This document shows, piece after piece, positions 5,190 through 7,391 of a stretch of 7,391 nucleotides of DNA. This DNA is from Pseudomonadota bacterium (GTDB lineage Bacteria > Bdellovibrionota_C > UBA2361 > OMIW01). The DNA is taken from NCBI GenBank assembly GCA_900299205.1, contig OMIW01000042.1, positions 1 to 7,391 of the forward strand, given 5' to 3'. The position numbers were made by a program, and so were the translations under genes. Position 1 is the first letter of the stretch, and every line of letters begins with the position of its first letter. The notes beneath the pieces are model-generated. The model did no database searches. It was given only the letters and a program-made list of their open reading frames with translations, and was not told where the DNA came from.

Positions 5190-6038
5190 CTAGGCCGCTG
5201 CTGCTTGGCTCTCTTCGACTTTCGAGCTCTTTCCACTTCGCGGCCGACGACGGCGAATTTCCCGGCGCTCAAAAGAATCGGCTCCCGCCTCCTCGGCTGC
5301 CTCTGGCACAATACGCGACAATTCGTCGCCGAGAGAATTGCGAAGGTCGTGGTATAGGGTCTCGAGAGCTCGCTTCTTCACCCGGCTGATATGACACCGG
5401 CTGTACCCAAGATTATCGGCGATATCGAGTAGCTGCTCCTCAGCAAGATAAATTCGACTGATCACCTCCCGCTCGAGGGGATCTAATCTATCGAAGGCAT
5501 CAGCGCTGATGGTAGCAAGCTCTTTTCTGAATAGCTCCTCGTCAGGGGATGAGAGGTCATTGTTAAAAAGTGCGCGGGCAACCTCGGCAGCATTCACCGT
5601 TCGACCTGGAGTCGCTCCATCATCAAGGTAGTCGTTTGCATCCGCGCCGAGGAGGGAATAGGCCGTGACCGACCCGGCAACTGCCCGAATCAGGTTCCCT
5701 CTCAGGTGAAAAAACATAAAGGTCATGAAGCTTGCCCCCTTTTCGGGGCTAAACCGCTGAACAGCCTCACAGAGAGACAGGTCAACGATACTGTCCACTT
5801 CTCCGATATCAAGGCGAGCATGCCACCGTCTGAGGATGCTACGAGCCAACTTGCGGGCCTTGTTCCGATACCCAACCACGAGCTCCACACGCTCTCGACG
5901 GGTTGTTCCCGCACCTTTTTTTACCGAGCGGGTCGGTTCGCGCTTCGGACGAGCCTCCTGGCTCCCCGCTATCCTAATCGAGCTCTGCTCCGCTGCTAAT
6001 TCCCCTGAATCCTTCCTTTTAACGGTCGTACTGCCCAT
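5190..6038 (-). CDS. Sigma-70 family RNA polymerase sigma factor (divergent pair, minus member)
   Basis: A 282-residue alternative sigma factor. Residues 1-50 are basic and probably disordered. Region 2 spans about 52-120: the core-binding part ends in LSLCEAVQRFSPEKG and runs into MTFMFFHLRGNLIRAV, the equivalent of the canonical ERFDPERGxxFSTYAxxxIRxxI that binds polymerase and melts the -10 element. A linker of about 60 residues shows no clear region 3. Region 4 spans about 180-232: RLDPLEREVISRIYLAEEQ, then a helix-turn-helix with DIADNLGYSRCHISRVKKRA that would read the -35 element. The last 45 or so residues are highly charged (RREIRRRRPR) and end in four alanines, unusual for the family. 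The ATG is supported by a strong AGGGAG five bases upstream. The gene shares a 499-bp upstream gap with a second sigma factor. The regulon is unknown; region 4 is well kept, so it is probably functional. Confidence 0.88.
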   Translation of the reverse strand: MGSTTVKRKDSGELAAEQSSIRIAGSQEARPKREPTRSVKKGAGTTRRERVELVVGYRNKARKLARSILRRWHARLDIGEVDSIVDLSLCEAVQRFSPEKGASFMTFMFFHLRGNLIRAVAGSVTAYSLLGADANDYLDDGATPGRTVNAAEVARALFNNDLSSPDEELFRKELATISADAFDRLDPLEREVISRIYLAEEQLLDIADNLGYSRCHISRVKKRALETLYHDLRNSLGDELSRIVPEAAEEAGADSFERREIRRRRPRSGKSSKVEESQAAAA

Positions 6039-6043
6039 GACAA

Positions 6044-6050
6044 CTCCCTC
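6044..6050 (-). promoter_or_regulatory. Ribosome binding site of the minus-strand sigma factor
   Basis: GAGGGAG on the minus strand, five bases before the ATG, is the best Shine-Dalgarno sequence in the window and fixes the start at 6038. Confidence 0.75.
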
Positions 6051-6106
6051 GAAAGTGAAGTCTTAACCTTGCCCTTCTCCTCGTTACCTTCTGCCATCCT
6101 GGCTGC

Positions 6107-6124
6107 CGGTGCCGTTCGGCACCG
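6107..6124. repeat. Perfect 8+8 bp inverted repeat (hairpin or operator)
   Basis: CGGTGCCG and CGGCACCG flank a TT; as RNA on either strand this forms a 7-bp GC-rich stem with a tetraloop. It lies about 70-85 bases before the minus-strand sigma ATG, within its likely leader. No T run follows on either strand, so it is not a typical terminator. GCCGGTGC, part of its left arm, recurs at 6391-6398. Confidence 0.75.
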
Positions 6125-6537
6125 AATCCCATCCCTAAACCGGCCCGTCAACTAACCCGATTCTTCCTTTCCTGGTACTCCTCTCTACGGCATAAAACGA
6201 GCGGAGATTGAGCTATTTTCAACTGCCGTTTCGGAAAGCATCTCTTACCGGTTTAAACACACGGGACCTCTTACCCCCTTATCCGCTCTCCTCCGATAAA
6301 CGGTTCACTTTTTTTTCTTTTCCGATAACAATTTTTTGTCATCACCTGGAATTGAAAGGGGGGAAACCACACATCGGAGATGGGAGTATTGCCGGTGCTT
6401 TTCGTTCTTCCCTTTTCCCCTTTTAATAACTGACCTATATTTCGGTAGATAAGCGCTCGCCGAGGTCGACCGTTAGCCGGTTTGACGAAGTCGCCTCCAA
6501 CGTCATTGCTCAAAACCTGGCTTCTTCGGGGCATCCC

Positions 6538-7356
6538 TTGACCGACGACCGAACATCAGAGGACTCTTCGCCGACCGGTAACACCCCCTCGATAGAGGAG
6601 GCGAATGCGCTTGCGGTTGAGCATACCGGTTGGGCGGAAAGCATCGCCCGCTCCGTGGCTCGAGCCTGGGGGCTGGATTGGCAGGACGATGGACTCGACG
6701 GCGCGGCAATGGAGGCTCTTCTGTTCTGCGCTCGTCGATTCGATCACACGCGGGGGGTTCCCTTTCGAGGGTACGCTCGGAGGCGAATACACGAGGCTGC
6801 CTCTGAACAAGCGCGTCGATCGAAAGGGTGGCGACGAAACAATGATGATTCGACCTCTGTCGAAGATAAGGCGCGGGCGATATCAAACGAGTTGCTCGGG
6901 ATTTTTCCAGAGCTTCGATCCGGCCAATTCGGGGATAATTTCGATTCTGGAGAGGCCCTAAATCGCGCATCAATTCGAGAATTGTTGATGGGCGCTGCTT
7001 TACTCGCCACGAAGCACAATGAAGAGGATCTGTCGCTGGAAGATGCGGTCGATGTGAAGCGACTCCTGAGGGGTATAGCCATCCTTGAGCCCGTTCACCA
7101 GGCAATTGTGTGGAAAGTTTATTGGGAGGGTGCCTCCCTCCGGGGTTTAGCGGATGAGTGGGATATCGATGGGCTCAACATTATTAGGGAGCACAAGATG
7201 ATACTCGAGCACCTCTGTCGCATGATGCAGGCCGGCAAGCAACCATTGGCCCGCCCCAAGATAAGACCCGGGCTTCGCACCCTCGCGGAGGGCATGAAGC
7301 AAAAGGGTTACACCAGTCCGTTTTCCTCACTGTTACCATCGGGGACCTCGCCATGA
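6538..7356 (+). CDS. Sigma-70 family RNA polymerase sigma factor-like protein (divergent pair, plus member)
   Basis: A 272-residue protein with sigma-70 architecture but more diverged than its partner. Region 2 covers about 25-95: IARSVARAWGLD, then GAAMEALLFCARRFDHTRG followed by VPFRGYARRRIHEAASEQ, the counterpart of the core-binding and -10-melting helices. A 75-residue linker with acidic stretches replaces region 3. Region 4 covers about 175-230: LLRGIAILEPVHQAIVWKVY, WEGASLRGLADEWDI, then a helix-turn-helix whose recognition helix (GLNIIREHKMILEHL) departs from the usual VSxxRVRQIExxAL pattern, so -35 specificity should differ. A basic, proline-containing tail follows. The start is uncertain: TTG 6538 is the only conventional start before region 2, without a clear ribosome binding site, and the frame is open upstream to a TAA at 6427. 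The stop overlaps the next gene's ATG (ATGA), so the two are probably co-translated. Confidence 0.8.
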   Translation: MTDDRTSEDSSPTGNTPSIEEANALAVEHTGWAESIARSVARAWGLDWQDDGLDGAAMEALLFCARRFDHTRGVPFRGYARRRIHEAASEQARRSKGWRRNNDDSTSVEDKARAISNELLGIFPELRSGQFGDNFDSGEALNRASIRELLMGAALLATKHNEEDLSLEDAVDVKRLLRGIAILEPVHQAIVWKVYWEGASLRGLADEWDIDGLNIIREHKMILEHLCRMMQAGKQPLARPKIRPGLRTLAEGMKQKGYTSPFSSLLPSGTSP

Positions 7357-7391
7357 ATGACCGACGTAAAACGGGGAAGGTAGATAGAGTA
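7353..7391 (+). CDS. 5' end of a gene coupled to the sigma factor (partial)
   Basis: ATG 7353 overlaps the preceding TGA by the sequence ATGA, and the frame (MNDRRKTGKVDRV) is open to the window edge. GGGGA about eight bases upstream may serve as a weak ribosome binding site. The alternative ATG at 7357 hits a TAG within nine codons. Only 13 codons are visible, so no family can be named; from position, a partner or regulator of the sigma factor is possible. Confidence 0.5.
   Translation, partial: MNDRRKTGKVDRV

Follow-up and report, generated by a model that had tools for sequence, protein, structure and literature searches.

We analysed a 7,391-nucleotide stretch of DNA (hereafter the window) from a Pseudomonadota bacterium, which is contig C42 (OMIW01000042.1) of the fragmented assembly G000 (GCA_900299205.1). 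One end of the window carries two genes, P1 and P2, for proteins related to sigma-70 factors, and the beginning of a third gene, SM, for a small protein. These three genes form a module that is retained throughout the class and repeatedly lies close to genes of an injectisome-type type III secretion system (T3SS). The class-wide retention and the proximity to T3SS genes, taken together, suggest that the module may be a dedicated switch for this machine, and we assign a probability of about 0.42 to a two-sigma circuit dedicated to T3SS genes, with SM as the anti-sigma factor. The preliminary description of the window had reported two sigma-like genes facing apart across a common gap, and the coordinates of the open reading frames (ORFs) bear this out (Table 1).

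The two sigma-like proteins

On the evidence of profile matches and the predicted fold, P1 can be assigned to the sigma-70 family through its regions 2 and 4. The whole protein scored 57.6 bits against TIGR02937 (cut-off 42.9) and 36.2 bits against Sigma70_r4 (cut-off 24.1), and 21.4 bits against Sigma70_r2, just under the cut-off of 24. Region 2 was placed at residues ~54-119 and region 4 at residues ~180-229. The N-terminal tail, which is basic, and the linker are disordered, the latter being modeled with low confidence. The leading Foldseek matches of the P1 model were all sigma factors, with E-values down to 4.7e-6.

P2 is much more diverged. By itself it scored below the cut-offs of Sigma70_r2 (18.3 bits) and TIGR02937 (26.8 bits); among 30 homologues, 29 matched Sigma70_r2, with a best E-value of 1.8e-7. 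In the AlphaFold model of P2 (pLDDT 85.5), residues 18-96 superposed on the N-terminal domain of SigE with a Z-score of 11.6 and a root-mean-square deviation of 1.6 Å, so the modeled protein has the region 2 helices on which the preliminary description depended, and a sigma-70 region 2 fold can be ascribed to P2. Sigma factors were again the leading structural matches in Foldseek. The TM-scores of both models were low, which probably reflects a different placement of the two domains. Region 4 of P2 (residues ~183-235) is atypical: the Sigma70_r4 profile matched only 2 of the 30 homologues, and the turn of the helix-turn-helix is unusual, while the structural alignment with sigma factors extends to residue ~235. 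P2 also carries a conserved K[IV]RPGL tail. In families f15-f18, f20 and f22 (loci L057, L058, L059, L060, L062, L073, L074, L076, L077 and L082), its C-terminus contains a hydrophobic segment, with a 17-residue mean hydropathy of 1.56 to 2.68, which could be a membrane anchor, an unusual feature for a sigma factor. By the same hydropathy measure, no member of the window's order has such a tail.

The two proteins had been described as unrelated-looking, a view that we had to abandon. Their profiles align end to end in hhalign (probability 96.8%, E 2.7e-10), and because of this P1 and P2 are best regarded, at the level of sequence profiles, as distant homologues of each other. Compared with sigma factors of solved structure, both are nearest in sequence to FliA/WhiG. 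The absence of an obvious region 3 held up within the profile scans, which gave no Sigma70_r3 match for the window proteins or for the 30 P2 homologues. The linker between regions 2 and 4 of P2 is helical in the AlphaFold model; it had no identified VIA-align match, an absence from that listing which carries no evidential weight.

P1 is a member of an expanded family with paralogues in the genomes of the class. Twelve loci with P1-like paralogues (L214-L225) were examined, and a P2 or SM partner was found in none. Their recurrent neighbours are proteins of ~480-615 and ~75-88 residues, which by eye resemble exonuclease VII subunits, and a protein of ~135-141 residues named by eye as receiver-like.

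The third gene

The preliminary description had placed the two sigma factors beside each other with no partner gene, an impression that arose from the end of the window. An ATG overlapping the P2 stop codon opens a 142-residue ORF, SM, which is cut by the window end and finished on contig C157 (L043:52-480). This contig was found by searching the window's own genome with P2, which matched its first bases; C157 and the last 90 bases of the window overlap with one mismatch. Across the class, SM has about 95-140 residues, with a low-complexity N-terminal half followed by a conserved C-terminal segment of ~45 residues. Its homologues form a cluster represented in 37 of the loci fetched, and SM adjoins P2 wherever P2 is on the same contig. 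This linkage, together with the exact co-occurrence of the two genes described below, makes SM a candidate anti-sigma factor.

One genome has a second, partial SM-like stretch on the contig that carries the module (G034:C27:4972-5145). Separately, most genomes of the class contain one to four FlgM-family matches, which exceeds the need for one flagellar anti-sigma factor.

Conservation of the module

Of the 45 genomes searched in the order and class of the window, 40 contained P2 and 40 contained SM; the five that lacked them are the same for both genes and are all 66-71% complete. The relatives are metagenome-assembled genomes (MAGs) or similar uncultured assemblies, in which contig ends conceal some arrangements. 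The divergent pair noted in the window was sought in these genomes and found: P1 and P2 are neighbours in 36 of the 40 genomes, in divergent orientation in 32 (counting G026, a contig-edge case) and in tandem in four. P1 lies 2.4 kb from P2 in one further genome (G037, L075), and contig ends or the absence of P1 preclude a call in three (G013, G044 and G011). Because the pair is conserved, a functional circuit is much more probable than could be judged from the window alone. The gap had also been interpreted as a shared control region. The divergent arrangement on which this was based is indeed the common form; sharing is not a defining property of the module, as the four tandem loci (L057, L058, L059 and L074) carry all three genes on one strand, in the order P1-P2-SM. 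Cross-regulation through the layout is a possibility for both sigma factors.

Outside the class, SM was not found, and a search of 51 genomes from other groups with P2 gave a single weak match (G080, E 7e-4). A scan with P2 of contigs from 84,980 species returned only uncultured MAGs, labeled Deltaproteobacteria, Oligoflexia, Bdellovibrionales or similar, and one weak match in Caulobacter. These bacteria may belong to UBA2361, a GTDB class of Bdellovibrionota_B that is named in PMC13200544. A few literature searches, of partial coverage, yielded no described example of such a module.

Linkage to type III secretion genes

Genes of an injectisome-type system (T3SS-A) lie near the module in 20 of the 40 genomes, representing 10 families; they include SctU, SctS, SctR, SctQ, SctJ and genes for FHA and TPR chaperone-like proteins. 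In 17 of these loci a TPR protein is encoded beyond the module, in most of them with a small unknown protein, and many contain SctU, SctS, SctR, SctQ and SctJ-like genes; contig coordinates added G013, G023 and G026. In one case the T3SS genes are on the opposite side of the module. For a 24-kb target in a 3-Mb genome, about 0.3 genomes would be expected by chance, a rough figure, as inherited gene order violates the independence that it assumes. A search of 43 genomes for SctQ of T3SS-A detected it in 40, the window's own genome among them.

The T3SS genes of the relatives seem to be split over two loci (for example in L045, L046, L150-L165 and L174). The first contains FHA, SctJ, SctQ, SctR/S/T/U and a TPR protein, and no SctV in the stretches read; the second contains SctV and a second SctJ preceded by a single sigma factor gene. 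SctU of the relatives is short, with about 213-236 residues in the examples read, and seemingly devoid of the autocleavage domain.

Control regions

Alignment of the P1-P2 gap from nine species of one genus revealed two conserved blocks. The heptamer GCCGATA upstream of P2 is invariant in all nine, and a TAAGGTTT-type -35 box precedes it in five, the -35 being diverged in the other four. The TAAGGTTT-type -35 box combined with GCCGATA is the established sigma-28 consensus. P2 thus appears to have a sigma-28-like promoter in this genus; a k-mer search for a P2 promoter motif outside the genus found none. Matches to the GCCGATA-type promoter are rare, with 1-3 per genome in the genome-wide scans, which covered the genomes of relatives. 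The window gap holds two TCCGATAA boxes (6292-6299 and 6321-6328), the first of which belongs to a weak candidate P2 promoter, TTACCCCC-N13-TCCGATAA, resembling the GCCGATA promoter of the related genus.

The other block, CAGATRSTTA-N8-10-WGAAGCR (26 bp), lies upstream of P1 in most lineages. A two-block matrix built from 10 training loci scored higher in 12 held-out loci than in 60 of 60 shuffles; the element had been spotted by inspection before this test, and some held-out loci share a genus with training loci. Over about 890 kb, a simpler pattern matched 17 times, and 14 of these matches were situated upstream of P1; the element is retained at P1 in three of the four tandem loci, all three outside the set from which it was derived. 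Because the matches lie upstream of P1, also in tandem loci, the CAGATRSTTA block belongs to P1 and is not a shared control element.

Proposed mechanism and alternatives

In the mechanism that we propose, P1 and P2 would act as FliA-like alternative sigma factors and SM as a small regulator, in a three-gene module that most likely controls the injectisome-type T3SS genes of these bacteria. SM would most likely inhibit P2 as an anti-sigma factor, and perhaps also P1. P1 would be driven by its own upstream element and P2-SM, in at least one genus, by the sigma-28-type promoter, and such separate control would create a sigma cascade with feedback. The circuit would work in the manner of FliA/FlgM or BtrS/BtrA, and SM may be exported through the T3SS. 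An elaborated version, in which a tail-anchored P2 is released or de-repressed by injectisome assembly or secretion in a T3SS-linked system of paired sigmas and a novel anti-sigma factor, is improbable.

Several results weigh against the proposed mechanism. In the window genome, T3SS-A is on contig C151 and not beside the module, and two incomplete genomes (G034 and G040) have the module and gave no match for SctQ of T3SS-A. The housekeeping genes encoding RdgB, TrmL and a glycosyltransferase also recur in synteny with the module, and because of this its proximity to T3SS genes may in part be plain inherited gene order. The SM family had no match in Pfam, NCBIfam, PHROGs or PDB sequences, none of 28 members matched the FlgM profile PF04316, and hhalign gave a probability of 0.1% for SM against FlgM, which was represented by only three sequences. 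The P1 element in the window is not significant, as 27 of 60 shuffles were equally good, and genome-wide counts of the element at other genes were overall no higher than those of the reversed-pattern control. Its use as a regulon marker was rejected, the genome-wide search having given chance-level counts only.

The sigma pair and SM could instead serve another process, such as envelope maintenance, motility or stress, and owe their position near T3SS genes to inherited synteny. The synteny of the housekeeping neighbours, the two genomes with the module and no detected SctQ-A, and the lack of T3SS linkage both in the window's own genome and in roughly half of the remaining ones all favour this explanation, which we nevertheless consider rather doubtful, as T3SS linkage is seen repeatedly, in 10 families and in one instance on the module's other side, and the co-occurrence of the module and T3SS-A is nearly complete.

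A different possibility is that P1 and P2 work as an obligate two-protein sigma (co-sigma) at the same promoters, with one weaker partner, as in the SigO-RsoA precedent (PMC8103513). The nearly universal pairing of P1 and P2 is consistent with this, as are the almost nil profile score of P2 region 4 and the diverged core-contact motif in region 2 of P1. We find it unlikely: each protein appears to carry both region 2 and region 4 folds, unlike a split pair, and the distinct elements upstream of P1 and P2 fit separate control. Less likely still, P2 would be a degenerate, non-initiating sigma factor that sequesters SM or competes for core polymerase. Its sub-threshold profile scores and its regions 2.2 and 4.2, diverged in alignments read by eye, point in that direction, but the conservation of P2 is no lower than that of P1; the REH of its presumed recognition helix is invariant, and its regions 2.3/2.4 are FliA-like. 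That the module is the flagellar FliA/FlgM system itself was ruled out, as most genomes have separate FlgM genes and SM is not FlgM.

Other features of the window

A gene on the reverse strand (465-2441) encodes a protein of 658 residues that contains a Schlafen-group-3 helicase domain (PF09848) and, along its entire length, matches PDC-S41, a candidate defence family of PADLOC (964 bits). The gene is situated in a stretch of lower GC content (about 44%, compared with 53-58%) and was therefore probably acquired. A search of the window for RNA elements gave no Rfam match.

Table 1. Features of the module in the window
Feature	Position	Strand	Basis
P1, sigma-70-family factor, 282 aa	5190..6038	-	Profile matches, predicted fold
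P1-P2 divergent intergenic region, 499 bp	6039..6537		ORF coordinates
Weak candidate P2 promoter, TTACCCCC-N13-TCCGATAA	6271..6299	+	Post hoc, a lead only
P2, diverged sigma-70-like factor, 272 aa, TTG start	6538..7356	+	Homologue profiles, predicted fold
Start of SM, small protein co-linear with P2, cut by window end	7353..7391	+	Continuation on contig C157

Comparison with known systems

Sigma factors are normally single and accompanied by an anti-sigma factor. If the proposed mechanism is true, the module would represent a new architecture coupling transcription to a secretion machine, with paired sigmas, a new small protein and, in some lineages, a predicted membrane-anchored sigma factor. 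The module also offers a handle on an uncultured lineage that has both flagellar and injectisome-type T3SS genes.

The module resembles FliA (sigma-28)/FlgM in that FliA is among the closest solved relatives of both P1 and P2 by sequence, the small partner SM has a low-complexity N-terminus, P2 has a sigma-28-like promoter in one genus and export-apparatus genes are nearby. Unlike FliA/FlgM, it has two sigma-like proteins, neither with a region 3 match, and SM is not detectably homologous to FlgM, true FlgM-type genes being located elsewhere in most of these genomes. In Bordetella, the sigma factor BtrS has a secreted antagonist that inhibits it, BtrA (BspR), an anti-sigma factor that controls the T3SS (PMC10732220). 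A sigma factor for T3SS genes with an inhibitory partner is also the role that we propose for the module; BtrS, however, is a single extracytoplasmic function (ECF) sigma factor, and SM is likened to BtrA by this proposed role, not by sequence. Bacillus subtilis SigO-RsoA is likewise a conserved pair of sigma-like proteins, with the sigma domains split between them (PMC8103513), whereas P1 and P2 each appear to have both sigma-2 and sigma-4 parts and would not form a split sigma. Among the other FliA-like and P1-like sigma factors of the same genomes, the paralogues of P1 are its kin, and differ from it in being unaccompanied by P2 or SM at the loci examined.
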